A program made the position numbers and the translations under genes. Below are positions 999 through 63,800 of a DNA stretch of 64,000 nucleotides, piece by piece; position 1 is the stretch's first letter; every line of letters begins with the position of its first letter. This DNA is from Buchnera aphidicola str. Ak (Acyrthosiphon kondoi) (GTDB lineage: Bacteria > Pseudomonadota > Gammaproteobacteria > Enterobacterales > Enterobacteriaceae), in NCBI RefSeq assembly GCF_000225445.1, contig NC_017256.1:434001-498000 (forward strand). The letters run 5' to 3'. The notes below the pieces were generated by a model. The model saw only the letters and a program-made list of their open reading frames with translations. It did not search any database and was not told where the DNA came from.

Positions 999-1709
999 AT
1001 GAAAAAAAAAAATAATGATACTACAATATGGTTTAATATTATTACTATTTTTCCAGAAATGTTTCGTACAATTACTGATTATGGCATTATTGGACAAGCA
1101 GTTAAAAAAAAAATTATTAATATTAATTTTTTTAATCCAAGAAATTTTAGTAAAAATAAATACAAATCCATAGATGATCGTCCTTATGGAGGAGGACCAG
1201 GCATGTTGATGAGTGCCGAACCATTGTATCTAGCAATTCAACAAGCTAAGTCTATATCAAAAAATGCAATTGTTATTTATTTATCTCCTCAAGGGAAAGT
1301 ATTTCAACAAAATAATATCAAACAATTAATTACAAGAAAAAAAATTATTTTTATATGTGGTCGATATGAAGGAATAGACCAACGGATTATTGATAATCAA
1401 GTAGATGAGGAATGGTCTATTGGGAGTTATATACTTACTGGAGGAGAATTAGCTGCCATGGTTATGATTGACTCTATCTCTCGATTAGTTCCGGGTGTTA
1501 TTAAAACCAAAAAATCAATAGAAGAAGATTCTTTTTCTAATAATTTACTTGATTATCCTAGTTATACGCGACCTCAAATTATAAGAAAAATGTTAGTTCC
1601 TAAAGTGTTATTATCTGGAAACCATAATCAAATTCGTCTTTGGCGTTTAAAGCAATCACTTGGAAATACATGGATTAAACGTCCTGATCTTTTAAAAAAA
1701 AAACACTAA
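999..1709 (+). CDS. trmD: tRNA (guanine37-N1)-methyltransferase TrmD, C-terminus frameshifted
   Basis: TrmD makes m1G37 in tRNAs that read CNN codons, using S-adenosylmethionine, and so prevents +1 frameshifts. The trefoil-knot motifs are present: RPYGGGPGM at 61-69, YLSPQGK at 94-100, CGRYEGIDQR at 120-129 and SIGSYILTGGE at 140-150. As written the frame stops after 236 residues, just behind a run of ten A (1694-1703). One more A would continue the frame to the TAA at 1763-1765, adding TLTKEEKILLDEF and a short lysine-rich tail that matches the end of E. coli TrmD and gives exactly 255 residues, the E. coli length. The gene also begins with an eleven-A run that is in frame. Confidence 0.96.
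   Translation: MKKKNNDTTIWFNIITIFPEMFRTITDYGIIGQAVKKKIININFFNPRNFSKNKYKSIDDRPYGGGPGMLMSAEPLYLAIQQAKSISKNAIVIYLSPQGKVFQQNNIKQLITRKKIIFICGRYEGIDQRIIDNQVDEEWSIGSYILTGGELAAMVMIDSISRLVPGVIKTKKSIEEDSFSNNLLDYPSYTRPQIIRKMLVPKVLLSGNHNQIRLWRLKQSLGNTWIKRPDLLKKKH
1694..1703 (+). other. A10 tract, frameshift site in trmD
   Basis: Ten A residues sit in the 3' part of trmD. As read they give KKKH and a stop. With eleven A the downstream bases 1704-1765 encode the conserved TrmD C-terminus. The tract is a candidate site of transcriptional slippage, or of a sequencing under-call. Confidence 0.8.
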
Positions 1710-1804
1710 CAAAGGAAGAAAAAATTCTGCTAGATGAATTCAAAAAAACAAATCAAAAAAAATAATTATTAATTTCTTTAAGTGTCTGAATTAAAGAGGA
1801 AATC

Positions 1805-2152
1805 ATGCTCAATATAATTCAAAAAATAGAAAAAAAACAAATCAAAAAAAATATACCTGTTTTTAGACCTGGAGATACTGTAGAAGTTAAAGTATGGGTT
1901 ATTGAAGGATCTAAAAAACGTCTACAATCTTTTGAAGGAATTGTGATAGCAATAAAAAATCGTGGTTTAAATTCATCTTTTACCGTCCGTAAAATTTCTA
2001 ATGGAGAAGGTGTTGAACGGGTCTTTCAAACGCATTCTCATAGCATTAATGAAATTCTTATTAAAAGAAAAGGTTTAGTTAGAAAAGCAAAATTATATTA
2101 CTTAAGAACCCTAACCGGAAAAGCAGCTCGTATTAAAGAAAGACTAAATTGA
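1805..2152 (+). CDS. rplS: 50S ribosomal protein L19
   Basis: L19 lies at the 30S-50S interface. The 115-residue product has exactly the E. coli length and is nearly identical through [43 protein letters not shown] and the end [11 protein letters not shown]. The ATG at 1805 follows AGAGGA at a normal distance. It closes the rpsP operon and is followed within ten bases by a clear terminator hairpin. Confidence 0.98.
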
Positions 2153-2159
2153 TTTTAAT

Positions 2160-2197
2160 ATGCAGTCATGACATAATTCTTGACTGCATTATTTTTT
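2160..2197 (+). terminator. Rho-independent terminator after rplS
   Basis: A perfect 9-base-pair stem (2160-2168 with 2181-2189, core TGCAGTCA/TGACTGCA) with a 12-base loop is followed by a T-rich run. It lies between the + strand rplS operon and the convergent tldD. Confidence 0.8.
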
Positions 2198-2235
2198 ATA
2201 ATATATAAATCATAATAAATTTTTATTCAAGAAAA

Positions 2236-3687
2236 TTACACAGTTCCACCTATAGTTAAACTTTCCAATTTCATAGATGGTTGACCTATTCCAACGGGAA
2301 TGTTTTGACCATCTTTACCACAGACACCTATTCCTGGATCCATTTTTAAATCATCACCAACCATTGATATTTTTTGCATAACTTCTAAACCTGAACCTAT
2401 TAGAGTTGTATTTTTGATTGGTGTAATAATTTTGCCTTTCTTTATCAAGTAAGCTTCTGAGGTAGAAAAAACAAATTTACCAGAAGTAATATCTACTTGA
2501 CCTCCGGAAAAATTTACAGCATACACTCCATAATCAACACTTTTAATTATATCATTTATTTTAGATTTTCCAGATAACATATAAGTGTTAGTCATACGAG
2601 GCATAGGTAAACATGAATAAGATTCACGACGTCCGTTACCGGTAGATTCCATACCCATTAGACGTGCATTAAGTTTATCTTGCATATACTTTTTGAGTAT
2701 TCCATTTTCAATTAAAACATTATATTGACCTGGAGTACCTTCATCATCTACATTTAATGATCCACGTTGATTTTTAAGTGTGCCATCATCAATAATAGTA
2801 CATAATTTTGATGCAACTTTTTTCCCAATCATATTAGTGAATATTGAAGTTCCTCTTCTATTAAAATCTCCTTCTAAACCATGACCTATTGCTTCATGTA
2901 ATAAAACACCTGGCCATCCAGATCCTAAAACTACTGGGAATGTTCCTGAAGGAGCTTCTTTTGAAGATAAATTCAATAAAGCTATGCGTACAGCTTCTCT
3001 AGACCAATAATCAATTCTAATTTCTTTTGAAAAATCATCTTGATTTAAGAAAAATTTATAATCAGTTCGACTGCCACCTCCACTCCGACCACGTTCTCTT
3101 TTTCCACTATCTTCTACTAAAACACTGATTGAAAATTGAACTGATGGTCTTATATCTGCTACTAAATTTCCATCAGTAGAAGCAATTAAAATTTTTTCAT
3201 ATGAACCTGTTAAAGTCGCATTTACTTCTGTTACACGATGATCAAGACTGCGTGCCACATGATCTGCTCTATAAAGAAGATCAATTTTTTCTCTAACAGA
3301 GAATGTTTCTAAAGGGTTAATGGCACTATAAAAAATTTGTGTTTGTTTTTTTGATAAAGTTCTTGTTTTTCCTGAACCTTTAATAAAAATTATACTGCGT
3401 GCTTTTTTAGTGCTAGCTCTTAAGGAATCTATTGATATTTGATCTGCATAGGCAAATCCTGTACTTTCACCTTTAATAGCTCTGACTCCAATTCCTTCAT
3501 CAGAATGGTAATTTCCTTCTTTTATAATTCCATTTTCTAGTGACCAAGATTCGTGAAAATGAGATTGAAAATAAAGATCTCCATAATCTAACTTATATGC
3601 ACAAAGTTCTTCTAAAGCAGTTAAAATATCTTGATGATTTATTTTATTTGCATCTAACAAAGATTCAGTAACTAATTCAAATGTCAT
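2236..3687 (-). CDS. tldD: Metalloprotease TldD
   Basis: TldD works with PmbA (TldE) as a cytoplasmic zinc metalloprotease that trims small peptides. The 483 residues match the E. coli length of 481. The metal-binding [11 protein letters not shown] motif (HExxxH form) lies at 264-274, the glycine-rich RGRSGGGSR segment near 199-207, and the conserved end [19 protein letters not shown] is intact. The gene stands alone, convergent with rplS and divergent from aroQ. PmbA is not in this window. Confidence 0.95.
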
Positions 3688-3812
3688 TTAAACTCACTTA
3701 ATTTATGATATTATCATAAATATCTATTATAAAAGATAAAAAAATATGATTTAATATTTTTAAAAAATTATATTTTAGCGTATTTAGTATACAATCATTT
3801 AAAGAGATTAAT

Positions 3813-4265
3813 ATGAAGAAAAATATAAATATATTATTAATAAATGGACCTAATTTAAATCTTTTAGGAACAAGAGAAACAAAAATTTATGGTAATGTTA
3901 CTTTGACTGATTTATTAAAAAGTCTAGAAATAAAAGCAAAAAAACTTAATGTGTCTTTAGATCATATACAATCTAATGCAGAACATGTACTGATTGATAA
4001 AATCCACTCTTCAAGAACGAAAATTAATTATATAATTATTAATCCAGCAGCATTCACTCATACTAGTATAGCTATTAGAGACGCGTTAATTGCAGTCGAT
4101 ATTCCTTTTATTGAAGTTCATATTTCAAACATTTATTCCAGAGAAAATTTTCGTTCTCATTCATGGTTATCTGATATTTCTAAAGGTGTAATCTGCGGAC
4201 TAGGTCTAGATGGTTACCATTGGGCGTTAGAGACAATAGCTAAAAGATTAATTAATTTAAAATAA
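3813..4265 (+). CDS. aroQ: Type II 3-dehydroquinate dehydratase
   Basis: This enzyme makes 3-dehydroshikimate, the third step of the shikimate route to aromatic amino acids, which the symbiont supplies to its host. The 150-residue product has the small dodecameric type II fold: [12 protein letters not shown] at 11-22, the catalytic tyrosine Y26, NPAAFTHTS at 78-86, and the H103 region EVHISN. E. coli uses the unrelated type I enzyme AroD, so this is a case where the gene is not the E. coli form. The ATG follows AGAGA at 3801-3805. Expression is probably monocistronic. Confidence 0.96.
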
Positions 4266-4335
4266 TGAAATTTATAAAAGTATGATTCGATTTATTAAAA
4301 ATAGAAAAATTTTATACGATAATTAAAATATAATT

Positions 4336-4375
4336 TTGCACTCTCTTAAATGTTTTTTTAAAATAGAAAGTGCAA
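4336..4375. terminator. Hairpin between convergent aroQ and fis
   Basis: A 7-base-pair stem TTGCACT/AGTGCAA (4336-4342 with 4369-4375), extended past a mismatch, lies between two convergent genes with AT-rich flanks on both sides. It could end transcripts from either strand. The T tails are imperfect. Confidence 0.4.
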
Positions 4376-4409
4376 TTAAAAAAGAGTTTAAAAAAAATTT
4401 TTAAAATAA

Positions 4410-4706
4410 TTAATTCATATTATATTTTTTTAATTTTTTTCTCAATGTGCTACGATTTATTCCCATCATTAAAGCAGCACGTGTTTGATTTCCTCTAGTA
4501 TATTGCATTACCATGTCTAAAAGTGGTTCCTCTAATTCAGCTAAAGCTAATTCATACAAATTATTTATATATTTTCCATTTAAATTTAGCAAATAATCTT
4601 TTAAAGATTTTTTAACTAATTCACGTAAAGGCTTTTTTATATTTTTATCTTTATTATGTGTATCAGGAAAAACTAAAAATTCTGTATTTATTTTTTTTTC
4701 TAGCAT
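4410..4706 (-). CDS. fis: Nucleoid-associated DNA-binding protein Fis
   Basis: Fis bends DNA and shapes transcription of stable RNA and growth genes. The 98 residues equal the E. coli length. The C-terminal half is almost identical, from [20 protein letters not shown] through the recognition helix [14 protein letters not shown] to the final MN. The N-terminal arm is more diverged. E. coli fis is cotranscribed with dusB, which is absent here. Keeping fis in a genome with few regulators suggests a structural chromosome role. Confidence 0.97.
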
Positions 4707-4870
4707 GATACTGTCAACTCTTAATTTTTTATATTATATATATCATTTAAAAGAATTATACTTAAAAACATTTTTTTATCTATTTAATAATATATTTAAA
4801 TTTTTTATATAATAAATAATATGTTTTATTAAAAATAAATACAATAAATAAAAAAATTTTGTTGTGTATT

Positions 4871-5809
4871 TTATATTTTTAAAATAAGTTCTTGCATATC
4901 TTGCGGAAGAGGTATTGTCCAAGACATTAAATTTTTAGTAATAGGATGATAAAAAGAAAGCCGGCTAGCATGTAATGCTTGACGAGGAAATTTATATATT
5001 GTATTCATGTTTTTATTTTTTATATAATCTAATTGAATATTAGATCCGCCATAACATGGATCCCCAACTAATGGGTATTTAATATATAACATATGTACAC
5101 GGATTTGGTGCGTACGTCCAGTTTCTAATCGTATTCCTATATGTGTATAAAATTTAAAACGATTAATTATTTTATAATGTGTTACTGATTTCTTTCCTGA
5201 ATGATGCACCATCATACACGTTTTTTTATAACGATGACGCATTATAGGCTCATTTACAGTACCACCTGAAATCATTCTTCCTTTGACAATTCCTTCATAT
5301 TCTCGAATAATTTTTCTTTTTTTCAATAATCCTAATAGATAATTATAAGAAAAAATAGTTTTTGCAATAACCATTAATCCACTTGTAAATTTATCCAAAC
5401 GATGAACTATACCTGCACGAGGTAAATCTTGAATATTTTTATAATGATATAATAAACCATTTAAAATTGTTCCTTGTTTATTACCTGAACCTGGATGAAC
5501 AACCAAACCAGAAGGTTTATTAATTACCAATATATCATTATCCTCATAAACAATATTTAAAAAAATATTTTCAGGTTTGTTGAATAATATATCTTCGTAA
5601 AAAGGACGAATGGTAAGAATCTCTCCGCCTAATATTTTTTTATCAGGTTGGTTTACAACAGTTTTATTGACTAACACCCGATTCATAATAATTAAACGTT
5701 TTAAGTAAGAACGAGAATATTCTTTAAATAATTCAGACAATACTAGATCTAATCTTTTTCCTAATAATGAGCAACATGATACGACAGCAGTTAATTCTAT
5801 TTTTTTCAA
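4871..5809 (-). CDS. rluD: 23S rRNA pseudouridine synthase RluD
   Basis: RluD makes pseudouridines 1911, 1915 and 1917 in helix 69 of 23S rRNA. An S4-like RNA-binding domain covers about residues 18-70. The catalytic motif HRLDK lies at 136-140, with D139 as the catalytic aspartate, followed by TSGLMVIAKT. The later ETGRTHQIRVH segment is also present. Length is 312 against 326 in E. coli. Its divergent neighbour is bamD, and rluD and bamD (yfiO) are also divergent neighbours in E. coli, which supports both names. Confidence 0.95.
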   Translation of the reverse strand: MKKIELTAVVSCCSLLGKRLDLVLSELFKEYSRSYLKRLIIMNRVLVNKTVVNQPDKKILGGEILTIRPFYEDILFNKPENIFLNIVYEDNDILVINKPSGLVVHPGSGNKQGTILNGLLYHYKNIQDLPRAGIVHRLDKFTSGLMVIAKTIFSYNYLLGLLKKRKIIREYEGIVKGRMISGGTVNEPIMRHRYKKTCMMVHHSGKKSVTHYKIINRFKFYTHIGIRLETGRTHQIRVHMLYIKYPLVGDPCYGGSNIQLDYIKNKNMNTIYKFPRQALHASRLSFYHPITKNLMSWTIPLPQDMQELILKI

Positions 5810-5951
5810 TATAATTATCCTGTAATTAAGAAATATTTTGATAATTTTAAAACTGGATCTTTAATGTTTATAGAATATAATATTCTATATAATTCCAAAC
5901 ATAAATATTTTTAACAAAAAATTTTATTAATTTAAACTTGAATACAAAATA

Positions 5952-6695
5952 ATGAAAAAAAAAAACAGTATTATATTTATTTTTATGATTTTATTTTTAA
6001 ACTTAACTGTGCACTCCGAATCTTTAAAAAATAATAATTTTATAGAAACATATATTCTTTATAAAGAATCTAATAAAGAATTAAAAAATGAGCATTTTGA
6101 TAATGCAATATATATGTTAGAAAAAATAAAAAAAAACAATATTGCTAATTTTGATAATGACAAAGTTCAAATACATTTAATTTATGCTTATTATAAAAAT
6201 TTAAATTTTAATATAGCTCAAAAAAATATAGAAGAATTTATGAGATGTTATCCAAATCATCCAAATACAGATTATGTTAGATATATAAAATGTTTAATTA
6301 GCATGTCTTTAGACAAAAACATACTTTTGAAAATTTTACCTATAAATTATCATAAAAATGATATTAATTATTCAATAAACGCGTTTTTTCAATTAAACAA
6401 TTTTATTCATCAATATCCTCAAAGTCTCTATCTTATTAATGCTAAAAAAAAATTAATATGTCTGAAATATCATTTATCTGAATACGATCTGGCAATATTA
6501 AAATTTTATTTTTCTCATAAAGAATATATAGCAGTTATAAATAGAGGAGAAGAAATACTTCAAAAATATTCAGAAACACCAGCTGCACGACAAGCCCTTA
6601 TATACATAGAAAAATCTTATAAAGCATTAAAAATATTTGATACAGCAAAAAAGATATCAAAAATAATTTTATTAAATCAAATTAAAGAAACTTAA
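5952..6695 (+). CDS. bamD: Outer membrane assembly factor BamD, without lipobox
   Basis: BamD is the essential accessory protein of the BAM complex that folds outer membrane beta-barrels. The 247 residues (E. coli 245) align along the TPR repeats: VQIHLIYAYYK, YPNHPNTDYVRY, YPQSLYLINAKK and the terminal repeat. A hydrophobic N-terminal segment at about residues 6-20 acts as a signal peptide. Unlike E. coli BamD, it carries no cysteine near its end (NLTVHSES in place of a lipobox), so lipidation seems impossible. An eleven-A run at 5955-5965 sits in frame right after the ATG. Confidence 0.92.
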   Translation: MKKKNSIIFIFMILFLNLTVHSESLKNNNFIETYILYKESNKELKNEHFDNAIYMLEKIKKNNIANFDNDKVQIHLIYAYYKNLNFNIAQKNIEEFMRCYPNHPNTDYVRYIKCLISMSLDKNILLKILPINYHKNDINYSINAFFQLNNFIHQYPQSLYLINAKKKLICLKYHLSEYDLAILKFYFSHKEYIAVINRGEEILQKYSETPAARQALIYIEKSYKALKIFDTAKKISKIILLNQIKET

Positions 6696-6866
6696 AATTC
6701 AAAAAGAAAAATTAATTTTAAATATAAAATTATTGATTGATAAAATACTCTAAAATACTTTTTTTAAATATTTTTTTAATGATTATAAATACAAAAAATA
6801 TAATAAATTTACTTTCAGAATACCTTGTACAATTAATATTGATTTTTATATTAACAAGAAAAAAAA

Positions 6867-9503
6867 ATGAAAAAAACAACAAATACAATACGTCAAGATT
6901 TTTTAAGATTTTTTAAAGAAAAAAAACATGTAATTGTTCCAAGTAGTTCTTTAGTTCCACATAATGATTCTACATTATTATTTACTAATGCAGGAATGAA
7001 TCAATTTAAAGAAATCTTTTTAGGTCAAAAAAAAAGCGATTATCCATGTGTAGCTACTGTTCAAAGATGTTTAAGAACTGGAGGAAAACACAATGATTTA
7101 GAAAACGTAGGATATACTTCAAAACATCATACATTTTTTGAAATGCTTGGTAATTTTAGTTTTGGAGATTATTTCAAACAAGAAGCAATTGAATATGCCT
7201 GGGAATTATTAACATCCAAAAAATGGTTTAATATACCAAAAAATAAATTATGGATTTCAGTATATCAAGATGACGATGAAACATATAACATATGGCATAA
7301 AATTATAAAAATCCCTTCCGAACGCATTATAAGAATAGGTGATAAAAATAACACTAAATATGAATCTGAAAATTTTTGGCAAATGGGTGATAGTGGACCA
7401 TGTGGTCCTTGTACTGAAATATTTTATGATTATGGAAACGAAATTATAAATAATCCATTAGAATTTTTAGAAAATAAAAAAAATCGTTTTATTGAAATCT
7501 GGAATATTGTTTTCATAGAATTCAATCGAATTTCAAAAACAAAAATTATTTCTCTAGAAAACAAATCTATAGATACAGGTATGGGATTAGAAAGAATATC
7601 TGCTGTTTTACAAAACGTTTTTTCTAATTATAATATTGATATATTTCAAGAATTAATTAAAGCTATATCTAAATTGAGTACTATAAATAATTCTAATGCT
7701 ATTTCCTTACAAGTTATAGCAGATCATATTAGATCTTGTGCATATATTATCGCAGATAATATCACCCCATCAAATGAACATAGAGGTTATGTTTTAAGAA
7801 GAATTATTAGAAGAGCATTAAGACATGGGCATAAAATTGGAATTAAAAAACATTTTTTTTATAAATTAGTATCGAATGTAATTCAGGCTATGGGAAATAG
7901 CGCTGATATATTAAAAGAAAACCAAGAAAAAATAGAAAAAATTTTAAAAATAGAAGAAATACAATTTTCTTATACCCTGGATAAAGGTTTAAAAATATTA
8001 AATTATGAAATACAAAAAATACATAATAATATACTTCCAGGTAAAATTGCATTTTATCTTTATGATACCTTTGGATTTCCAATTGATTTAACAGCAGATG
8101 TTTGTCGTGAAAAAAATATAAAAATAGATTACACTAACTACAAAATAGAAAAAGAAAAACAAAAAAAACAATCAAATATTAATAAAACATTCCATAAAAA
8201 TTATAATGATAATATCGTTCTAAACGATACTTGTTTTTTTGAAGGTTATACAAAAAACACAATACAATCATCTGTAAAATATATTTTCGTAAATAATCAA
8301 TCCGTTGCTACTATTACAAAAGATGAAAATGGAATTATTTTTCTTGATAAAACGCCGTTTTATGGTGAGTCAGGAGGACAAATAGGTGATATAGGTCAAT
8401 TATATAATCAACAATCATCTTTTATAGTAGAAAATACAAAAAAATATGGAAAAATGATAGGACATATTGGAAAATTAATTTCAGGAAAGATTACAGTTAA
8501 TGATCCAATTTATAGTCAAATTGATAAAAATCACAGACATTTTATTCAATTGAATCATTCCGCAACACATTTATTACACGCTGCATTACGAAAAATTTTA
8601 GGAAATAATGTTAGTCAAAAAGGATCTTTAGTAACTAATAAATATTTAAGATTTGATTTTTCTTATTTTGCGCCAATAGAAATGTCTCAAATACAGAAAA
8701 TTGAACATGTTGTTAACATGAAAATTCGAAATAATATTAAAATTGAAACTGAAGAATTAAGTTTAGAAGAAGCTAAAAAGAAAAAAGCGATGGCTTTTTT
8801 TGATAATCAATACAGTTCTATTGTACGAGTTGTATTTATAAACAATTTTTCAATTGAGCTTTGTGGTGGTACACATGCTGAAAGAACTGGCGATATTGGA
8901 TTATTTAAAATTATTTCTCAATCAAGTATAGCATCAGGAATTAAAAGAATTGAAGCTGTAACGGGGAAGAAAGCTATAGATTATTTACATGAAAAAGATA
9001 ATTATATAAAGGATATATCTCTTATACTAAATTGTAATAATTTCGATATTAAAGAAAAAGCCAAAAAACTTACAATAACGATAAAAAATCTAGAAGAAAA
9101 AATAATTCAAATACAAAAAAAAGAAAATGTACAATATATAAAAAAATTGCTTAAAAATGTAACTGATATACAAGGAACAAAATTTTTATCAAATATTTTT
9201 TATGATCACGAACATAAACTATTAAGAATAATAGTTGATCAATTAAAACAAGAGCTAAAAAACACAATTATTATCTTAATAAATATTATTAATAATCGCT
9301 TTACTATCATTATCGGAGTTACAAAAAATCTATTTAAAAATATAACAGCAATAAAAATCATGGATATGATTAAAAACGAAACAAATGGAAAGGGAGGAGG
9401 AAAAAAAGAAATTGCTGAAGGAGGAGGTATTTATACAAAACAACTACTGACTATTTTAAATAATATAAAACCATGGATCAATACACAGTTGAATAAAAAA
9501 TAA
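6867..9503 (+). CDS. alaS: Alanyl-tRNA synthetase
   Basis: AlaRS charges tRNA-Ala and clears Ser and Gly mischarges. The 878 residues match the 876 of E. coli. The class II catalytic core is N-terminal (QFKEIFLGQ, RCLRTGGKHNDLENVG, HHTFFEMLGNFSFGDYF). The editing-site zinc ligands are all present: HSATH at 564-568 and CGGTH at 666-670, followed by a C-terminal C-Ala domain ending in GKGGGKKEIAEGGG and a short tail. In contrast with leuS of this window the editing residues are intact. csrA follows, as in E. coli. Confidence 0.98.
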   Translation: MKKTTNTIRQDFLRFFKEKKHVIVPSSSLVPHNDSTLLFTNAGMNQFKEIFLGQKKSDYPCVATVQRCLRTGGKHNDLENVGYTSKHHTFFEMLGNFSFGDYFKQEAIEYAWELLTSKKWFNIPKNKLWISVYQDDDETYNIWHKIIKIPSERIIRIGDKNNTKYESENFWQMGDSGPCGPCTEIFYDYGNEIINNPLEFLENKKNRFIEIWNIVFIEFNRISKTKIISLENKSIDTGMGLERISAVLQNVFSNYNIDIFQELIKAISKLSTINNSNAISLQVIADHIRSCAYIIADNITPSNEHRGYVLRRIIRRALRHGHKIGIKKHFFYKLVSNVIQAMGNSADILKENQEKIEKILKIEEIQFSYTLDKGLKILNYEIQKIHNNILPGKIAFYLYDTFGFPIDLTADVCREKNIKIDYTNYKIEKEKQKKQSNINKTFHKNYNDNIVLNDTCFFEGYTKNTIQSSVKYIFVNNQSVATITKDENGIIFLDKTPFYGESGGQIGDIGQLYNQQSSFIVENTKKYGKMIGHIGKLISGKITVNDPIYSQIDKNHRHFIQLNHSATHLLHAALRKILGNNVSQKGSLVTNKYLRFDFSYFAPIEMSQIQKIEHVVNMKIRNNIKIETEELSLEEAKKKKAMAFFDNQYSSIVRVVFINNFSIELCGGTHAERTGDIGLFKIISQSSIASGIKRIEAVTGKKAIDYLHEKDNYIKDISLILNCNNFDIKEKAKKLTITIKNLEEKIIQIQKKENVQYIKKLLKNVTDIQGTKFLSNIFYDHEHKLLRIIVDQLKQELKNTIIILINIINNRFTIIIGVTKNLFKNITAIKIMDMIKNETNGKGGGKKEIAEGGGIYTKQLLTILNNIKPWINTQLNKK

Positions 9504-9686: not shown

Positions 9687-9872
9687 ATGCTTATTCTAAC
9701 TCGTCGAGTCGGCGAAACGTTAATAATTGGCGATGAGATAACTGTAACAGTACTAGGAGTTAAAGGTAACCAAGTTCGTATTGGTGTAAATGCCCCTAAA
9801 GAAGTTTCGGTACATCGTGAAGAAATATATCAACGTATTCAAGCTGAGAAAAAACAACACAAAAATTACTAA
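9687..9872 (+). CDS. csrA: Carbon storage regulator CsrA
   Basis: CsrA is a dimeric RNA-binding protein that represses or activates mRNAs by binding GGA motifs near ribosome sites. The 61 residues equal the E. coli length and differ only in a few conservative places; [11 protein letters not shown] and [21 protein letters not shown] are kept. The leader directly upstream (about 9600-9686) is richer in G and C than the other spacers. It holds AAGGAACAAAGAATG at the start, containing an AAGGA core that CsrA itself could bind, so autoregulation is possible. A terminator follows directly. Confidence 0.98.
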
Positions 9873-9878
9873 TCAATA

Positions 9879-9915
9879 CTGCATCTTACTATTCTTAAGT
9901 AAGATGTAGTTTTTA
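9879..9915 (+). terminator. Rho-independent terminator after csrA
   Basis: A 12-base-pair stem with one G-T pair (9879-9890 with 9898-9909, core GCATCTTACT/AGTAAGATG) has a 7-base loop and is followed by TTTTT. It separates csrA from the tRNA genes. Confidence 0.8.
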
Positions 9916-10029
9916 TACGTAATTTTAAAACACGTACAATAGATGTTCCTAATATAAAAAATATGATTGACTTATATAAAAAAAAAAGTAAAATAAAATC
10001 AATAAAAATTAAAAAAATTTTTATAATCA

Positions 10030-10118
10030 GGTGAGATGGCCGAGAGGCTGAAGGCGCTCCCCTGCTAAGGGAGTATGCAGAAAAATCTGCATCGAGGGTT
10101 CGAATCCCTCTCTCACCG
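10030..10118 (+). tRNA. serV: tRNA-Ser (anticodon GCT)
   Basis: This 89-base gene folds into a class II tRNA with a long variable arm. The acceptor GGTGAGA pairs with TCTCACC, the anticodon loop is CTGCTAA with anticodon GCT (reading AGU and AGC), and the T loop is TTCGAAT. The discriminator base is G. The 3' CCA is not encoded, so it must be added by the CCA enzyme. It is paired with a tRNA-Arg gene 21 bases downstream, as serV and argV are in E. coli. Confidence 0.95.
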
Positions 10119-10139
10119 TCATTATTTAATTTTTTAACT

Positions 10140-13451: not shown

Positions 13452-14164
13452 ATGATAAAAAAAATATTTGTTATTATAATTAGTATGTTTTTTTTTTATC
13501 TTTTCATAAAAAAAATCATGTCAAAAAAAATACTATAAAAAATTTCTATCAAGCAAAACTTGTGTCCATTAAAATTCATCAAAATGTACCAGGTTCTTTT
13601 TACTGTGGATGTAAAATTATTTGGCAACAAAAAAAAGGAGTTCCTAATCTATATTCTTGTGGATATAAAATACGAAAAAATAAAAATCGCGCAACAAGAA
13701 TTGAATGGGAACATGTTGTTCCAGCATGGCAATTCGGACATCAAAAAAAATGCTGGAAAAAAGGAGGTCGGAAAAAATGTATTTTAGACAAAAAATATCA
13801 ATATATTGAATCTGATCTTCATAATTTACAACCCGCTATTGGAGAAATAAATGCAGATCGTTCTAATTTTATGTATGGTCAATTAAATAATAAAATTTCA
13901 CAGTATGGAAGATGTCATATGAAAATAGACTTTCAAAAAAAGATAGCGGAACCACCTGAAAGAGCTCGAGGCGCTGTAGCTAGAACTTATTTTTACATGA
14001 GCAAAAAATATAATATTATTTTATCCAAAAAAGAAAAAAAAATATTTAAAATATGGGATAAAAATTTTCCTGTAACAAAATGGGAATGTGAAAGAGAGAA
14101 AAAAATATTTAAAATACAAGGTAATCACAATAATTATATTTATAAAAAATGTTATAAAAAATAA
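13452..14164 (+). CDS. endA: DNA-specific endonuclease I, signal peptide out of frame with the nuclease
   Basis: EndA is a periplasmic DNA endonuclease in E. coli. The nuclease part is intact: [21 protein letters not shown] (catalytic region), [29 protein letters not shown] and WECEREKKI all match. A signal peptide, [15 protein letters not shown], starts at the ATG at 13452 but is in another frame and would stop after 28 codons. The break lies at a run of ten T (13488-13497). One more T joins the two parts into 237 residues (E. coli 235). Without it only a leaderless form could start, at the GTG at 13562. rsmE follows after 12 bases, as in E. coli. Confidence 0.88.
13488..13497 (+). other. 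T10 tract, frameshift site in the endA signal peptide
   Basis: Ten T residues in the hydrophobic core of the signal peptide. With ten the frame ends at a TAA soon after; with eleven it runs into the mature nuclease (through [14 protein letters not shown], matching E. coli NSFSQAKAAAVKVH). Confidence 0.8.
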
Positions 14165-14977: not shown

Positions 14978-15646
14978 TTATTTTTCTTTTTTAATGGTTT
15001 TTATTCCTTTTTGCGTTCCAATTAAAACAACATCAGCACTTCTAGCAGCAAATAAACCTACTGTAACTACTCCCGGTAATGAATTAATTTTTTTTTCCAT
15101 TGATACAGGATCTGTAATAGATAAATTATATACATCTATAATGATGTTACCATTATCTGTGATAACATTTTTTCGATATTTTGGTATCCCTCCAATTTTT
15201 ATCATTTCCTGGAAAATATAAGAAAGAGCCATCGGGATAATTTCAATAGGTAATGGAAATTTTCCAAGAATATCTACTTTTTTTGATTTATCAATAATAC
15301 AAACAAATTTTTTTGCCATTGTTGCAATAATCTTTTCTCTGGTTAAAGCTCCTCCTCCACCTTTAATCATCTCCATACGATGATTTATTTCATCGGCACT
15401 ATCGACATAAATAGCAATTGAACTAAAACTTTTTAAGTTAAATACTTCTATGCCTTGTTTTTTTAATAATAGAGTAGAAGAATTAGAACTAGATACTGCT
15501 CCATATATTAAATTTTTTATTGTACTTAAAGCTTCAATAAAATAAACAATTGTTGTACCAGTTCCTACCCCAATAATAGTACCGGGATAGATATAATCTA
15601 ACGCTGCCCATGCTGCTTTTTTTTTTAGTTTGTTTAAATTAATCAT
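14978..15646 (-). CDS. rpiA: Ribose-5-phosphate isomerase A
   Basis: RpiA interconverts ribose-5-phosphate and ribulose-5-phosphate in the non-oxidative pentose phosphate pathway. The 222 residues compare with 219 in E. coli. GVGTGTT at 26-32 is the phosphate loop, then [20 protein letters not shown] with the catalytic lysine region, DILGKFPLP and [11 protein letters not shown] ten-base A run near the N-terminus (15617-15626 on the map) is in frame, coding LKKK. Confidence 0.97.
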
Positions 15647-40940: not shown

Positions 40941-41036
40941 AATATTTTAAAAGATAGTTTTGGCTGAAATTTTATAAAAAATAAATTTTGTATTTTTTAA
41001 AATATATAAATAAAAACATAATTTCTATATCACTAT

Positions 41037-46130: not shown

Positions 46131-46976
46131 ATGTACATCTTTTTTCCTAACTTAAATCCTATAATTTTCACTATTGGTCCTATATCTGCTCGTTGGTATG
46201 GTTTTATGTATATAATTGGTTTTTTATTTGCAGTATGGTACGGGAAAAAATGTATTATAAAAAATAAAAATGCATGGTATGAAAAAAAAATAAATACATT
46301 ATTATATTCTGTTTTTTTAGGATCCTGTATTGGAGGAAGAATAGGATATATTATTTTTTATAACTTCCCATATTTTTCTCAAAACATATTATGCATATTT
46401 CATATATGGGAAGGAGGAATGTCATTTCATGGGGGATTAATAGGTGCTATAATTGTAATGTTATATTTCTCTTTTAAATATAAAAGAAAAATATTAGAAA
46501 TATCTGATTTTATAACGCCACTAATACCTTTTGGTTTAGGTGCTGGACGATTAGGGAATTTTATTAACAGTGAATTATGGGGTCGTGTATCACCAAATTT
46601 TTCATATGCAATGATTTTTCCTAATTCTTATAGTCGAGACCTAGAGATAGTAAAAAAATACCCTCAGTTACAACCATTATTAGACAAATATGGAGCATTA
46701 CCGCGCCATCCTTCGCAATTATACGAATTTTTTTTAGAAGGCATTATTCTATTTTTTATAATTTACTTTTTCTCAAAAAAAGATAGACCAATAGGTAGGA
46801 TCAGCAGTTTATTTTTAATTTTTTATGGAGTGTTTAGAATATTTATAGAGTTTTTTAGAGAACCGGATCCTCAAATAGGGCTATTAAAAAACATAATAAC
46901 TATGGGACAATTATTATCAATTCCCATGATTATTTCTGGATTAATTATTATGTATCAATCTTTCTATAAAAAATAG
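46131..46976 (+). CDS. lgt: Prolipoprotein diacylglyceryl transferase
   Basis: Lgt attaches diacylglycerol to the lipobox cysteine of lipoproteins in the inner membrane. The 281 residues (E. coli 291) form several membrane segments, with SARWYGFMYIIGFL at the start, the catalytic-loop FHGGLIGAI, the signature GAGRLGNFINSELWGR, and FIEFFREPD near the end. It is followed by thyA after 13 bases, as in E. coli. Two lipoprotein counterparts in this window, BamD and NlpD, have no lipobox, so its substrates are unclear. Confidence 0.97.
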   Translation: MYIFFPNLNPIIFTIGPISARWYGFMYIIGFLFAVWYGKKCIIKNKNAWYEKKINTLLYSVFLGSCIGGRIGYIIFYNFPYFSQNILCIFHIWEGGMSFHGGLIGAIIVMLYFSFKYKRKILEISDFITPLIPFGLGAGRLGNFINSELWGRVSPNFSYAMIFPNSYSRDLEIVKKYPQLQPLLDKYGALPRHPSQLYEFFLEGIILFFIIYFFSKKDRPIGRISSLFLIFYGVFRIFIEFFREPDPQIGLLKNIITMGQLLSIPMIISGLIIMYQSFYKK

Positions 46977-49189: not shown

Positions 49190-49656
49190 ATGAAAAATAT
49201 TATTATAAACCTTCAAATTTGTTGTAAAAAAAATCACAATATACCAAAAAAATTACATTTTAAAAAATGGACGCAAAAAGTTTTATATAAAAAAAAAACA
49301 TTAATATTGTAACAATTCGTATTGTGGATGAATTAGAAATTAAAAAATTAAATTTTATTTATAGAAATAAAAACAAACCAACAAATATTTTATCATTTCC
49401 TGTTAATAAATTTATTAAAATAAATCACAAATTATTAGGAGATTTAGTATTATGTAAAAATATAATAGAAAAAGAATCTTTAAAATATAATAAATCATTA
49501 GAATCACATTGGGCTCATATAACAATACATGGAATACTACATCTATTGGGATATGATCATCAAAATTCTAAAGAAGCAAATATTATGGAAAAAATTGAAA
49601 ATAAAATAATGCTATCTTTAAATTATAATAAACCATATATCTTAAAAAATTATTAA
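49190..49656 (+). CDS. ybeY: Endoribonuclease YbeY, frameshifted at a poly-A tract
   Basis: YbeY is a zinc endoribonuclease needed for 16S rRNA 3' end maturation and ribosome quality control. From the ATG at 49190 the frame matches the E. coli N-terminus (NIIINLQICCKKN against QVILDLQLACEDN) but stops after a ten-A run at 49289-49298. In the next frame NIVTIRIVDE, KPTNILSFP, LLGDLVLCK and the zinc motif HGILHLLGYDH continue to 49656. One added A joins them into 155 residues, exactly the E. coli length. The second part alone could start at a GTG at 49324 but would lack about 45 residues. Confidence 0.9.
49289..49298 (+). other. A10 tract, frameshift site in ybeY
   Basis: Ten A residues; with ten the frame ends at a TAA at about 49310, with eleven it reads KKKNINIVTIRIVD and on to the zinc motif. 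Confidence 0.8.
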
Positions 49657-54299: not shown

Positions 54300-54944
54300 A
54301 TGAAAAAGTTATATGGAATTTTCGGTGGGAATTTTGATCCTATTCACTATGGACATATTTATTCCGCTAAAAAGTTAGCAAAAGAAATTAACATAGAAAA
54401 AATAATATTTCTACCAAATAATTGTCCTCCTCATCGCGATAAAACTCAAACATCTTTATCAGATAAAATAAATATGATTAAACTTGCTATTAATAATCAT
54501 TCTTTATTTGAAATAAGTTATTTAGAAACAAAAAAAAATAAATGTTTCTATACTATAGATACACTAAAAAAAATTAGAGAAGAAATAAGTTATTTAAGAC
54601 CTTTATGTTTTATAATAGGAGAAGATAACTTGCAAAAATTCTATCTCTGGAAAGATTGGAAAAAAATATTATTGTACTCTCACTTGTTGATTTGTCCTAG
54701 AAAACATAAAAAAAAAAATAATAATGAATTAGAAAAATGGATTAAATCTCATATTGTATACGATTGTAATTTATTACATCAGAAATCATTTGGTTTGATT
54801 TTCTTTTCAAGAATACCTCTTATCAATATTTCTTCTACTAGAATAAGAAAAAATTATTTTATAGGGAAAAGTTCTCATTCACTCTTACCTCCTGTTGTAA
54901 ATAATTACATTTTGTTTAAAAAATTATACTATAATAATAAATAG
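54300..54944 (+). CDS. nadD: Nicotinate-nucleotide adenylyltransferase
   Basis: NadD makes deamido-NAD. The 214 residues compare with 213 in E. coli. GGNFDPIHYGHI at 9-20 is the nucleotidyltransferase motif, then FLPNNCPPHRDK, FIIGEDNLQKFYLWKDW and the ISSTRIR motif near the end. An eleven-A run at 54718-54728 is in frame. Confidence 0.96.
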   Translation: MKKLYGIFGGNFDPIHYGHIYSAKKLAKEINIEKIIFLPNNCPPHRDKTQTSLSDKINMIKLAINNHSLFEISYLETKKNKCFYTIDTLKKIREEISYLRPLCFIIGEDNLQKFYLWKDWKKILLYSHLLICPRKHKKKNNNELEKWIKSHIVYDCNLLHQKSFGLIFFSRIPLINISSTRIRKNYFIGKSSHSLLPPVVNNYILFKKLYYNNK

Positions 54945-55252: not shown

Positions 55253-55290
55253 ATTTTAAAGACTTTATAAAAAATTTCGTATAAAAAAAT

Positions 55291-55361: not shown

Positions 55362-55395
55362 GAAAAATTTTATTGTTCTAATAATAAAAAATACA

Positions 55396-57405: not shown

Positions 57406-57424
57406 AATATATTATTTTTTTAAA

Positions 57425-57462
57425 AACCTGTTATTAACAGAATAACAGGTTAAAACAAGTTT
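57425..57462 (+). terminator. Rho-independent terminator after yhgN
   Basis: A perfect 11-base-pair stem AACCTGTTATT (57425-57435 with 57441-57451) with a 5-base loop lies 20 bases past the yhgN stop. A TTTTTT run follows some 9 bases later. Confidence 0.65.
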
Positions 57463-57517
57463 TTTAAAAAAATATAAAAAATAAAATATACGTAAATTAC
57501 TATAAAAAGGTATTATC

Positions 57518-58681
57518 ATGAGTATAAAAAAGATAACTGAAATAAATATAACAGGAAAAAAAGTTTTAATAAGAAGTGATTTAAATGTTCCTATAGAAAA
57601 CGGGATTATTCAATCTGATGCTAGAATACTAGCAGCTCTTCCTACTATCGAATTAGCTGTTCAAAAAAAAGCTAAAGTAATTGTTATGTCTCATTTAGGA
57701 AGACCGAAAGAAGGATATTATACAAAAAAATATTCTTTATTTCCTATATTTAAATATTTTCAAAATAAATTCAAAAGCACAAAAATACATTTTTCTAATA
57801 ATTTTTTAGATGACGTTGTAATTAAGCCAGGAGAAATTGCAATTTTAGAAAACACTCGTTTTAATACAGGAGAATTAAATAATAGTGAAATACTATCTAA
57901 AAAATATTCTAATCTTTGTGATGTATTTGTAATGGATGCTTTTGGAAGTGCACATAGAATGCAATCCTCTACTTATGGGATTGGAAAATTTGTTAAAATT
58001 GCATGTGCTGGGCTTCTTTTAACAAATGAAATCAATGCTTTAAAAAAAGCATTAAAAAAACCAAAACGACCAATGGTAGCTATAGTAGGAGGTGCAAAGG
58101 TATCAACTAAATTTAATGTATTACACAAATTATCTAAACTTGCAGATACGATAATAGTAGGTGGGGGTATAGCAAATACTTTTTTAGCTATTGATTACCA
58201 AATAGGAAAATCATTGCATGAACCAGATTTTATATTAGAAGCTAAAAAGTTACGCGATAAATATAATATTATTGTACCTATTGATTCTCGTGTTGGAAAA
58301 AATTTTTGTAAAAATGAAAAATCTATAATTAAATCTCCTGATAACATTGCAGAAGATGAGGAGATTATGGATTTTGGTGATCAAAGTATCGAAAAAATTG
58401 TTGATATTCTAAAAAAATCTCAAACAATTATTTGGAATGGACCAGTTGGAGTATTTGAGTTTCCAAATTTTAGAAAAGGAACTGAAACAATTGCAAAAAC
58501 AATTGCACATTGTGATGCTTTTTCTATAGCTGGAGGAGGAGATACATTATCTGTTATTGATATGTTTAACATAAAGAATAATATCTCTTATATTTCAACT
58601 GGAGGAGGAGCTTTTCTAGAGTTTATAGAAGGGAAAAAATTACCTGCGATAGAAATGTTAGAAGAAAAATTTAAAAAATAA
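57518..58681 (+). CDS. pgk: Phosphoglycerate kinase
   Basis: Pgk makes ATP from 1,3-bisphosphoglycerate in glycolysis. The 387 residues equal the E. coli length. RSDLNVPIENG, SHLGRPKEG, LENTRFNTGE, MDAFGSAHR, the AIVGGAKVSTK segment, IIVGGGIANTF and the nucleotide loop FSIAGGGDTLSV are all present. It heads the pgk-fbaA-mscS order found in E. coli. Confidence 0.98.
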   Translation: MSIKKITEINITGKKVLIRSDLNVPIENGIIQSDARILAALPTIELAVQKKAKVIVMSHLGRPKEGYYTKKYSLFPIFKYFQNKFKSTKIHFSNNFLDDVVIKPGEIAILENTRFNTGELNNSEILSKKYSNLCDVFVMDAFGSAHRMQSSTYGIGKFVKIACAGLLLTNEINALKKALKKPKRPMVAIVGGAKVSTKFNVLHKLSKLADTIIVGGGIANTFLAIDYQIGKSLHEPDFILEAKKLRDKYNIIVPIDSRVGKNFCKNEKSIIKSPDNIAEDEEIMDFGDQSIEKIVDILKKSQTIIWNGPVGVFEFPNFRKGTETIAKTIAHCDAFSIAGGGDTLSVIDMFNIKNNISYISTGGGAFLEFIEGKKLPAIEMLEEKFKK

Positions 58682-58706
58682 ATTAAATAATTAATAGGAA
58701 AAAAAA

Positions 58707-59783
58707 TTGAATATTTTAAATGTTATTGAACCTGGTGTTATGAATGGTGATGAAGCACGAATAGTATTCGAATTGGCTAAAAAAAAACAATTTGCAATAC
58801 CAGCTATAAATTGTATAGGAACCGATTCTATAAATGCTGTTTTAGAAACCGCTGCGAAAGTAAAATCTCCAGTTATCATACAATTTTCACATGGAGGAGC
58901 TTCTTTTATTGCCGGTTATAAAAATAATTTTTCAAAAAATCAAGAACAAGCAACGAAAGGATCTATATCTGGTGCTCAACATGTACATTTAATGGCAAAG
59001 TACTATAAAATTCCAGTAATACTTCACACTGATCATTGTCCTAAAGAACTATTATCATGGATTGATGAACTATTAGAAGAAGGTAAAAAATATTATAACA
59101 ATAATAATAGACCTCTTTTTACATCTCATATGATTGATTTATCAAAAGAAAGTTTGCATGAAAATGTTTCTACATGCAAAAAATATTTAAAAAAAATGCA
59201 TGATATTAACATGATGTTGGAAATAGAATTAGGATGTACAGGAGGAGAAGAAGATGGTATTGACAATACTACGATAGATAAAAAGTTACTTTATACACGA
59301 CCTCAAGATGTTAATTATGCTTATGAAGAATTAAACAAAATTAGTAAAAATTTTAGCATCGCTGCTTCTTTTGGTAATATACATGGTGTTTATCAACCTG
59401 GTAATATTGATCTTCGACCTATTATTTTAAAAAATTCACAAGATTTTGTGAGTTCTAAACACAATTTAGAAAAAAATCCATTAAATTTAGTATTTCATGG
59501 AGGTTCAGGTTCACATTTGAAAGAAATTCAGGAATCAATTGAATATGGAATCGTTAAAATGAATATTGATACTGATATACAATGGGCTGCATGGAATGGT
59601 GTTTTAAATTTTTATAAAAAAAACAAAGAATTTTTACAAAATCAATTAGGAAATAAAAGCGATCAAAATAAACCTAATAAAAAATACTATGATCCAAGAT
59701 CATGGATAAGAAAATCACAAGAATCTATGTCAACTAGATTAGAAAAATCATTTAAAGAACTAAATGCTTTTAATATTTTATAA
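58707..59783 (+). CDS. fbaA: Fructose-bisphosphate aldolase class II
   Basis: FbaA is the zinc-dependent aldolase of glycolysis. The 358 residues compare with 359 in E. coli. Zinc and active-site motifs are VILHTDHCPKE, MLEIELGCTGGEEDG, SFGNIHGVY, VFHGGSGS and KMNIDTDIQWA. The start is a TTG at 58707 behind TAGGA; no ATG fits the homologous N-terminus (NILNVIEPGVMNGDEA). Confidence 0.97.
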   Translation: MNILNVIEPGVMNGDEARIVFELAKKKQFAIPAINCIGTDSINAVLETAAKVKSPVIIQFSHGGASFIAGYKNNFSKNQEQATKGSISGAQHVHLMAKYYKIPVILHTDHCPKELLSWIDELLEEGKKYYNNNNRPLFTSHMIDLSKESLHENVSTCKKYLKKMHDINMMLEIELGCTGGEEDGIDNTTIDKKLLYTRPQDVNYAYEELNKISKNFSIAASFGNIHGVYQPGNIDLRPIILKNSQDFVSSKHNLEKNPLNLVFHGGSGSHLKEIQESIEYGIVKMNIDTDIQWAAWNGVLNFYKKNKEFLQNQLGNKSDQNKPNKKYYDPRSWIRKSQESMSTRLEKSFKELNAFNIL

Positions 59784-59801
59784 CAATTTTTAATTTTATT
59801 C

Positions 59802-59827
59802 CGGGGAATAAATAAAAATATTCTCCG
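59802..59827 (+). terminator. Stem-loop after fbaA
   Basis: CGGGGAATA (59802-59810) pairs with TATTCTCCG (59819-59827), one G-T pair, around an 8-base loop. No T run follows directly, so it may be an mRNA end-stabilising stem, not a full terminator. Confidence 0.4.
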
Positions 59828-59926
59828 AAGAGTAGATTTATTAAAAGATATGCTTGTATTAAAAAAATAGTAATAAATAATTATAAAATTTTTAGTCACT
59901 AATAGTTAAAATATACAGAGATCATA

Positions 59927-60778
59927 ATGGATGAATTAAATGTAGTAAATGATATTAATCATGCAGGAAATTGGTTGATACGTAATCAAGAATTACTGCT
60001 GGGATATATGGTAAATCTAACATCTGCTATTATTATTTTAATAGCCGGAATGTTTATATCTAAAATTATATCAAATGGAGTCAATCAAGTATTAATTACT
60101 CGTAATATTGATGCTACTATTGCTGGTTTTCTTTCTGCATTAATGCGATATATTATTATTACTTTTACATTGATTGCTGCATTAGGTCGAATTGGAGTAC
60201 AAACGACATCAGTCATTGCTATATTAGGAGCTGCTGGTATGGCAATTGGTTTAGCTTTACAAGGATCTTTATCTAATTTTGCAGCTGGTGTATTATTAGT
60301 TACTCTTAGACCATTAAAAACTGGAGAATATGTTAATTTAGGAAATGTTTCAGGAACTGTATTAAATATTCATATTTTTTATACGACACTCCGTACTTTA
60401 GACGGAAAAATTGTAGTAGTACCTAATAATAAAATTATCTCCGGTAACATTATTAATTATTCACGAGAACCTGCACGCCGTAATGAATTTATTATAAGTG
60501 TATCATATGATAGTGATATTGATTTAGTAATAAAAGTATTACGCACAGTAATAGAAAAAGAAGATAGAGTAATTAAAGACAAAGATGTTATTGTTGGTCT
60601 TAGTGAATTAGCTCCATCTTCTTTAAATTTTATAGTTCGTTGTTGGAGTAAAAATCATGATTTAAATTCAGTATATTGGGATTTAATGGCTAAATTTAAA
60701 AAAGAATTAGATAAAAACAATATCAATATTCCTTACCCTCAACTAGATATAAATCTCTATAAAAAAGATCAAAAATGA
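59927..60778 (+). CDS. mscS: Small-conductance mechanosensitive channel MscS
   Basis: MscS opens under membrane tension to release solutes on osmotic downshock. The 283 residues compare with 286 in E. coli. Two N-terminal membrane segments (about 25-50 and 65-90) precede the pore helix [20 protein letters not shown], then the cytoplasmic domain ([29 protein letters not shown]). It follows fbaA as in E. coli (where it was yggB). Confidence 0.96.
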
Positions 60779-60829
60779 AATTTAATAAAAAAAACCTTTT
60801 ATTGTATTCTAAAAAAAAATTAGGTCACC

Positions 60830-63800
60830 ATGTTTATAGTATATAAATCAAATTCACTAAATAGATTATTATTAAAAGCGTATCATATTATCCAAAAAAA
60901 ACCTCTGTCTAATATTTTCGAAAAAGAGATTTTTGTTCATGACAACAAGATACTTTTTCAATATTTAAATATATTTTTTGCCGAAAAAACAGGAATTTCT
61001 GCTAATTTTAAATTATATCATCCTAATTATTTTATATGGAAATTATTTAAAATAATACTATCTAAAAAAAAATTAAAAAATACATTTACTCATGCTATGA
61101 TAGCTTGGGAAATTATGAAGATTCTAGATAATAAAAATTTTCTAGAATATTATAATGAAAAATTAGACAACATACAAAAATTTAAATTTTCATTTTTAAT
61201 GGCAAATATATTCGAACAATATATTGTTTATCGTCCTAATTGGATTAATGAATGGGAAAAAGAACAAAATATATCAATTACTGATCCAATGGCAAAATGG
61301 CAAAAAAAATTATGGATGAAAATAACATCTAATATAAAAAAAATATATCCATTTAGCTGTCATTTTGCAAAATTATTTTATAGTATACAAGCATTAATTC
61401 AAGAAAAAAAAATAAAAAAAAAATATTTACCGAATCGCTGTTTTATTATTTCTGATTTGACATTGAATCCTTCTTATATCAAAATTCTTAAAAAAATAAG
61501 CACATATATTAATATTTATTTTTTATACATTACACCGTGCAAAAATAATATATTCTATTTAATTAAGGATAATAAAGTTTCTTTACATGAAAAAATAGAA
61601 AAAAAAAATATGTTTCATAATTCATTAATAATGTTATGGATACAATATGAAAAAATTTATTCTTTATATATTATACAATCGAAAAAAATTAAAAAAATAA
61701 ATTGTTTTAAAAAAAATAAAAATGATAATTTATTAAATAATATTAAAAACGATTTTTTAGAAGGTAACAAATTAAAAAAAAAAGATTATTAAAACCAACA
61801 GACAATTCAATTTCTATAAATATTTGTTTTAATAAAAAAAATGAAATTGAAATACTACATAAAAAATTATTAGTATTTTTTTCTGAAAATTCATCTATAA
61901 AACCTGGAGATGTAGTTGTTACATCTTTTTCACTTGAAAGTTATATTTCATATATTGATTCAATCTTTACATCATTAGACAATAAACAACAAATTCCTTT
62001 TTTTATCTCTAAAAAATTTTCTAAAAAGACAGAAATAATATTCTCTTCTTTTAAAAAAATACTAAATTTATCTAATAGTCGTTTTGAAAATGAAGAAATA
62101 CTAGAATTACTAGATGTTCCTGAAATAGCAAATAAATTTAATTTTTTAGAAGAAGAAATAAAAATTTTATATCATTGGGTAGAAGAAGCAAATATTCGAT
62201 GGGCCATTGATTCTAGACATAAAGATTATTTATCTTTTCCTGAAAACAAAGAAAATACTTGGTTTTACGGTATAGAAAAATTACTCCTTAGTTATGCAAT
62301 GAATGATACGGAAACAATTTGGAATAATATTTTATCATGTAGTTTAATTAATGGTTCTAGAGCAGAATTAATAGGAAAATTAATTATATTTATAAAGGTA
62401 CTTAAAAAATGGCAAAATAAATTGTCAAAATCGCAAAATCTTACATATTGGCGTTCATTATCTAAAAACTTAATTAATGATTTCTTTTATTATAATAAAA
62501 AAACGGAACAATCTATTCATATGATTCACAGATATTGGATAGAAATGATTGATGATGGTTTATCATCTAACTATTCAAATAAAATCTCGATCAATATACT
62601 AAAAAAAAATTTTTTCTATAAATATTATCATACTGATAATCAAATGTTTTTTCCTGGGGTAGTAAATTTTTGTCATCCTGCTTCTATATGTTATATTCCA
62701 TTTAAAATAATATGTATTATTGGATTTGATCATCTAAGTATTCCAAAAATTAATCATTTAGATAATTTTAATTTATTAAAAAAATATCCATTAATCGAAG
62801 ATATTGATATATATCAAAAATATTGTTACTTATTTATTCAAAGCATATCCTGTGCTGAAAAATATTTTTATATCAGTTATGTTGGATATTCTCTTAAAGA
62901 TGAAAGTAAAATATATCCTTCTGTTTTAGTCGATCAATTATTAAATTATATAGCGTTTAATTTTTATCTTATAGGCGATAAAAATTTAACTTTAAAAGAT
63001 AATACTAAAAAATTAATTAAACATCTATGCAAAAAATATAAAAAACAATATTTTTATGAAAAAAAAAATATAAATTATCTTACTAAAGAAAATTTCAATA
63101 AGATATTTAAATATCCAGAAAAAAACATTTATGAAAAAGATCTATTAAATAAAAATAATTTCAACAAAATTAATATAAAAGATTTAATAGATTTCTGGAA
63201 AAATCCAATACGATATTTTTTTAATTTTAGCTTAAACATAAAAATAAATATAAAAAAACAAATACTTAATACAACAGAACCCTTTTTAGTAGATCAATTA
63301 GAAGCTTTTAAAATCAAAAATATTTTGTTAAACAAAATTATAAATAATCAAAATACAATTAAATTATTTCAATATTATATTCTTTCTGGAAAATTACCTT
63401 ATCATTTTTTTGGAAAAATTTTTTGGGATCAAAATATTAAAGAAATAACATTAATTGCAAAAGAAGTCATGAAATATAGAGTTTTAACACACGAAAAAAA
63501 AATTAATTTAAACATAGAAAAATATCAAATTAATGGAATATTATATGAAATACAAAAAATAGGATTACTGCGTTGGAAAATAAATAGAATAAATTATAGT
63601 GATCGTATTTCTTTATGGTTAGAACACTTAATTTACTCGGCATCAGGCGGTGATGGAGAAAGTATAATAATAGGTTATAAAAATCAAAATTGGTCTTTTT
63701 CCTCTTTGAGACCTGATATAGCATATAATTATCTTTTAAAATATATTAAAGGATATATCAAGGGTATAAGACAACCTTTATTATTAACAAAATCAGGTGC

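Follow-up and report, generated by a model that had tools for sequence, protein, structure and literature searches.

Introduction

Homopolymer frameshifts in Buchnera and their possible rescue, frameshifts that are maintained in Blochmannia, and a frameshifted ybeY in Blochmannia turneri are all already known. In 2008, Tamas et al. reportedly found that transcriptional slippage at poly(A) tracts rescues genes of Buchnera and Blochmannia other than those considered here, with transcripts and one protein measured, and Wernegreen, Kauppinen and Degnan are said to have described in 2010 ancient frameshifts that are maintained in Blochmannia. Here we examine a window of 64,000 nucleotides from Buchnera aphidicola str. 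Ak (Acyrthosiphon kondoi; hereafter Ak), bases 434,001 to 498,000 of its chromosome of 641,794 bases (whole genome 653,223 bases), in which the four genes trmD, endA, ybeY and recC each switch frame at exactly ten A or T. We propose that these are maintained homopolymer frameshifts, probably rescued in the main by +1 transcriptional slippage, and that the four breaks differ in age.

The four genes resemble those of the 2008 study in organism group, in their A/T tracts of about ten bases, in the single-base nature of the break and in the otherwise intact state of the gene; they differ in identity and in that the evidence presented here comes from genomes alone. As in the maintained Blochmannia frameshifts, break and tract persist across species, whereas the organism here is Buchnera, the genes are others, 36 genomes of one genus are compared, and the tracts are ranked against all A/T tracts of at least nine bases in the window. 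Corrected transcripts have been put at 12-50% (PMC5009743, available portion), and some frameshifts are shared by different species and show no degradation (PMC3017870, available portion). In Ak itself, ten homopolymeric frameshifts were counted by Degnan et al. 2011 (PMC3164680); its main text does not contain the names trmD, endA, ybeY and recC. In the Buchnera of Myzus persicae, poly-A breaks were merged as working genes (Jiang et al. 2013; PMC3890641). There too the breaks are of a single base and the genes look conserved on both sides, whereas that account, in its available portion, names no gene and makes no cross-species comparison. In the literature searched, which consisted of partial main texts without supplements, we recognised no naming of a ybeY or endA break in Buchnera. 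What is new here is the differing ages that the genomes suggest for the four breaks, together with good evidence that those in ybeY and endA have long been maintained.

Results

Four genes change frame at tracts of ten bases

The initial annotation of the window held that four genes are broken at exactly ten-base A/T tracts and that one extra base would restore each of them. Coordinates and tract lengths were confirmed, translation and alignment support the frame breaks, and all four proteins continue in the frame reached by one added base. The features concerned, all on the plus strand, are as follows.

999 to 1709, plus strand: trmD main frame, to and just past the break (open reading frame, ORF, of 236 residues; Pfam PF01746)
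1694 to 1703, plus strand: trmD A10 tract, frame break (alignment)
1703 to 1765, plus strand: trmD C-terminal tail in the other frame (readable, 20 residues to the stop)
13452 to 13487, plus strand: endA start in the first frame, with a signal-peptide-like N-terminus (translation)
13488 to 13497, plus strand: endA T10 tract, frame break (both frames read)
13498 to 14164, plus strand: main part of endA, second frame (NCBIfam deoxyribonuclease I, under the model's curated cut-off)
49190 to 49288, plus strand: N-terminal 33 codons of ybeY, first frame (translation)
49289 to 49298, plus strand: ybeY A10 tract, frame break (translation and alignment)
49299 to 49656, plus strand: rest of ybeY, second frame (carries the conserved motif HGxLHLLGYDH; NCBIfam rRNA maturation RNase YbeY)
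60830 to 61773, plus strand: recC N-terminal part up to the break (ORF)
61774 to 61783, plus strand: recC A10 tract, frame break (alignment)
61783 to 64000, plus strand: recC after the break, second frame, with no stop before the window ends

The comparison set consisted of Ak and 35 congeners, these being every genome from a search of the genus, and the syntenic region was taken from each of the 36. Breaks were called by frame-aware protein-to-DNA alignment of 13,715 protein-genome pairs, with orthologues from up to seven congeners per gene as references, for ORF groups present in at least eight genomes, and were additionally checked by translation. This alignment is blind to shifts common to all references, which places the programmed prfB shift outside its reach. 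It returned five calls in the window, three of them breaks of one base short in trmD, ybeY and recC. The other two were taken as spurious: at 9869-10105 the ORF group overlaps tRNA genes, and at 40976 the call reflects a stop within a start extension. The endA break was missed because the piece before its tract is only about 16 residues long, and it became evident when both frames were read. Within these ORF groups, none of the calls in real genes of the window belonged to the opposite class. This agrees with the initial annotation, which saw no gene in need of the opposite correction and, the programmed prfB shift apart, no further frameshift. Runs of 11 and 12 were also called in the same window. 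The trmD break costs only about 20 C-terminal residues, and the truncated product may therefore work.

The ybeY and endA breaks are widely shared and their tracts conserved

Across the 36 genomes, ybeY is broken in 26 and intact in 10. Twenty-four of the breaks are one base short (23 at A10, one at A9), and two belong to the other class (A9 in genome G012, A13 in G034). An A11 at the ybeY site occurs in none of the genomes compared; where the gene is in one frame, the run is shorter, interrupted or flanked differently. The gene endA, which 35 genomes carry, was called by script as broken in 25 (23 at T10, two at T9) and is intact in seven, while the remaining three, left open by the script and judged by eye, look broken in the same way; none of the 35 carries a break of the other class. 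The C-terminal break in trmD is found in Ak and seven relatives, at runs of 9-12, one of these relatives being called with 4/6 references only. A break somewhere in recC occurs in 12/36 genomes including Ak, and by eye it lies at the Ak site in three others.

We ranked the 56 A/T runs of at least nine bases in the window by their persistence in the other genomes, using for each genome the longest run found no more than about 12 bases from the aligned position. By the criterion of staying uninterrupted at nine bases or more, endA came first (30/34 genomes) and ybeY second (29/35), followed by a tract with 24/32. The chance of two out of four preselected tracts filling the top two places is 6/1540. 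The recC and trmD tracts ranked 20 and 26, that is, they are not kept more than other tracts.

Both parts of ybeY and the main part of endA are constrained

The ratio of nonsynonymous to synonymous changes per site (pN/pS) of ybeY after the break was 0.23 in six close pairs of broken genomes, a value near the middle among the region's 52 gene groups (0.09-0.63), some of which themselves carry breaks. The 29 codons before the break gave 0.47, compared with 0.35 in four pairs whose ybeY is intact. The main part of endA gave 0.21 (five pairs, those of equal length among nine tried, with one genome used twice). These values indicate purifying selection on both parts of ybeY and on the main part of endA.

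The position of the first canonical start codon after the break is scattered in both genes (26 broken genomes for ybeY, 28 for endA), and in 8/26 genomes the first such start of ybeY comes only after 65 codons or more, adjacent to the HGxLH motif or past it. Because these starts are unconserved and often deep in the protein, separate translation of the second part is unlikely.

Reconstruction of the breaks on the tree

Changes were mapped on a FastTree tree of 8,454 concatenated residues, rooted at the midpoint, in which 3/33 printed support values fell below 0.7. For ybeY, parsimony required six changes if the root was broken and eight if it was intact; under one-way change, loss of the break alone required six changes and gain alone twelve. 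The corresponding figures for endA were six and seven, and six and eleven. The breaks in ybeY and endA are probably ancient, and those in recC and trmD, present in fewer lineages, are probably younger. This difference in age goes beyond the initial annotation.

Breaks accumulate at long tracts and mostly in one direction

Over 1,828 gene copies of the 36 genomes, excluding 8 copies in heavy decay and nine ORF groups of doubtful status, and with endA mostly missed by the alignment, the number of breaks per tract was 0/4,390 at A7, 2/2,761 at A8, 14/1,360 at A9 and 64/445 at A10, and for longer tracts 14/90 at A11, 9/27 at A12 and 4/9 at A13. A break was attributed to whichever run was the longest at a distance of up to about 45 bases, a procedure that favours long runs. 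Among the 116 breaks called, 111 were assigned to runs of at least nine bases; 102 lay within 6 bases of the assigned run, and 100 of these were at runs of nine or more.

Of the called breaks, 94 were one base short and the remaining 22 belonged to the other class, corresponding to 63 and 20 separate origins on the tree. The other class was concentrated in a few genes (origins one short to other: lgt 7:8, nadD 9:4, nlpD-like 5:2, cysH 0:3). For ybeY the origins were 10:2, and outside nlpD-like, cysH, lgt, nadD and ybeY they were 32:1, a grouping chosen after the counts had been seen and therefore descriptive. The direction bias would fit selected genes tolerating the class that can be rescued by a +1 insertion or a minus-one ribosomal shift. 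AAG makes up 6% of Lys codons, and comparing AAG with AAA codons was therefore too weak a measure of how pure the tracts are kept.

ybeY in other genera

A frameshifted ybeY is described for Blochmannia turneri in the available portion of PMC4389277, and in a genome that is probably that of B. turneri we likewise found the gene one base short, at an A11 in a different position. This break lies elsewhere in the gene and thus has an independent origin. Among 20 ybeY stretches from other small-genome genera, partly chosen as broken-looking, seven (L224, L226, L227, L229, L230, L231 and L234) are frameshifted at 8-12 As, at other positions in the first part of the gene, six of them one base short and one of the other class. 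Intact ybeY is also present in other genera, for example in a genome that is probably the Buchnera of Baizongia.

Breaks in other genes

Two other genes of the window are intact in Ak and frameshifted in relatives. lgt (46131-46976 of the window) is frameshifted in 15/36 genomes, 7 one short and 8 of the other class, a pattern that looks like relaxed selection, and nadD (54300-54944) is frameshifted at runs of 9-12 in 15/35 genomes, 11 one short and 4 of the other class. The sulfate assimilation genes are heavily decayed in two genomes (five copies in G001, two in G020), with stops and shifts also at short tracts.

A heuristic scan of the window and 18 other stretches of 20 kb (kilobases) of the Ak chromosome gave 16 junctions, some of which are ordinary gene boundaries; two of its three junctions in the window are not breaks. 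Outside the window (stretches L177, L179, L181, L185 and L186), breaks of one base short were seen in pieces of PriA, CvpA (colicin V production), a GHMP kinase, a small methyltransferase and a dihydroorotate dehydrogenase, and one of the other class in ApbE. These gene names come from Pfam domains; we take the GHMP kinase to be ispE, the small methyltransferase to be rsmC-like and the dihydroorotate dehydrogenase to be pyrD.

Discussion

Taken together, these observations suggest that the frameshifts described here are maintained and are probably rescued mainly by +1 transcriptional slippage. RNA polymerase would slip at the ten-base tract and insert an additional A or U, a fraction of the transcripts would then encode the full protein and, in ybeY and endA, selection would keep both the tract and the protein. 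Slippage appears to be the best reading for these two genes because their breaks are widely shared, their tracts show unusual conservation, purifying selection acts on the parts tested, and genes other than the four that look relaxed (nlpD-like, cysH, lgt and nadD) carry almost only breaks that a +1 insertion could rescue. From the DNA we infer the occurrence of rescue, the part played in it by RNA polymerase instead of the ribosome, and any effect on protein dose. The rescue by slippage proposed in the initial annotation is accordingly best supported for ybeY and endA, whereas recC and trmD would also fit recent decay and, in trmD, a tolerated truncation.

Several observations weigh against this reading. 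In Buchnera, according to the available portion of PMC5574713, no frame-restoring transcription error was detected, with only 157 insertions recorded in all; in favour of slippage, the same source places 151/157 transcript insertions, as opposed to 16/57 deletions, in homopolymers. When an intact outgroup is added to the tree, the parsimony difference for ybeY shrinks to about one step, which favours an ancient break only modestly, so that great age is likely, not proven. If the break is ancient, ybeY would have returned to one frame about six times, and the gene can therefore do without it. In the genomes with the break, constraint on the N-terminal part of ybeY is somewhat lower, as judged from only 29 codons. 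Ranking by exact tract length gives a weaker picture than ranking by persistence at nine bases or more: endA is still first (26/34) and is followed by an in-frame T9 at 15088 (25/35), and ybeY (23/35) ties with an in-frame A9 at 58779, the maximum for other runs of ten being 17/35. Finally, both the length dependence and the direction of the breaks could partly reflect DNA mutation; a comparison of neutral direction in spacers, using 13 triples of two sisters and an outgroup, provided only 32 comparable tracts, of which 29 were unchanged and 2 clearly changed.

The full protein could also be made by the ribosome, through minus-one frameshifting on the A or U run, which we regard as unlikely. 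Judging from the sequence, the heptamers A AAA AAA and U UUU UUU occur in frame within A10 and U10, and a shift of minus one would yield an identical product and the same direction bias. There is, however, no sign of a stimulatory structure such as marks a programmed shift of the dnaX type: folding of the 80 bases downstream gave a mean z of -0.34 for ybeY (26 genomes, 3 below -2) and, for endA, -0.28 (25 genomes, 2 below -2), no stronger than shuffles, and a motif resembling a Shine-Dalgarno sequence lies upstream of ybeY in only 1/26 genomes. Seven bases would moreover be enough for the ribosome, yet breaks are absent from A7 and number two on A8. The sharp rise at nine bases and above would thus resemble polymerase slippage more than the seven-base need of the ribosome, an argument that is indecisive because DNA mutation also climbs with tract length. 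Recent or ongoing decay, in which the tracts would be mutational hot spots and the genes young pseudogenes, seems to us rather improbable as a general account, and it suits recC and trmD best, whose breaks occur in fewer genomes and whose relatives are broken at other sites; the breaks in both directions in lgt and nadD also speak for it. It is harder to reconcile with ybeY and endA, where the break is present in most genomes, the tract is highly conserved and pN/pS is ordinary, and the heavily decayed genes elsewhere, with many lesions that fall at short tracts too, are unlike any of the four.

Two further accounts would dispense with rescue altogether. It is very improbable that the segment downstream of the tract is translated from a start codon of its own. 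Ak does offer a GTG at 49324 in ybeY and at 13562 in endA, opening ORFs of 110 and 200 residues, but neither GTG is conserved, the first starts being scattered and often deep as described above, and the part of ybeY before the tract remains constrained. The initial annotation had raised the possibility that the tracts are under-called runs of eleven, which for this assembly is a legitimate concern, Ak having been assembled from 454 reads (PMC3164680, available portion), which are known to be weak at homopolymers. According to the same portion of that paper, depth exceeded 100-fold and amplification-free Illumina reads corrected the 454 data. Under-calling is unlikely for ybeY and endA because 23/36 and 23/35 genomes share the broken ten-base tract; no A11 appears at the ybeY site, longer runs were called in the same window, and as an explanation of the four breaks it is the hardest of all to credit.

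Maintenance of the frameshifts with rescue by transcriptional slippage can be extended by a more speculative proposal, which we put forward only tentatively and consider somewhat doubtful. The ybeY A10 and endA T10 tracts could have been programmed transcriptional slippage sites since before the radiation of the genus, fixing a low dose of YbeY and of the secreted nuclease, and the ybeY breaks in other insect symbionts, Blochmannia turneri among them, could then represent convergent down-tuning of the gene.

If the proposed maintenance with rescue is true, most sampled genomes of the genus have retained two genes, one of which encodes an rRNA-maturing ribonuclease, in a form that looks broken, and gene counts and pseudogene calls in symbionts would overlook working genes. 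The roughly six lineages in which, by parsimony, ybeY is back in one frame would allow expression that depends on slippage to be compared, in nature, with expression that does not. The efficiency of slippage would then be a heritable setting of protein dose.

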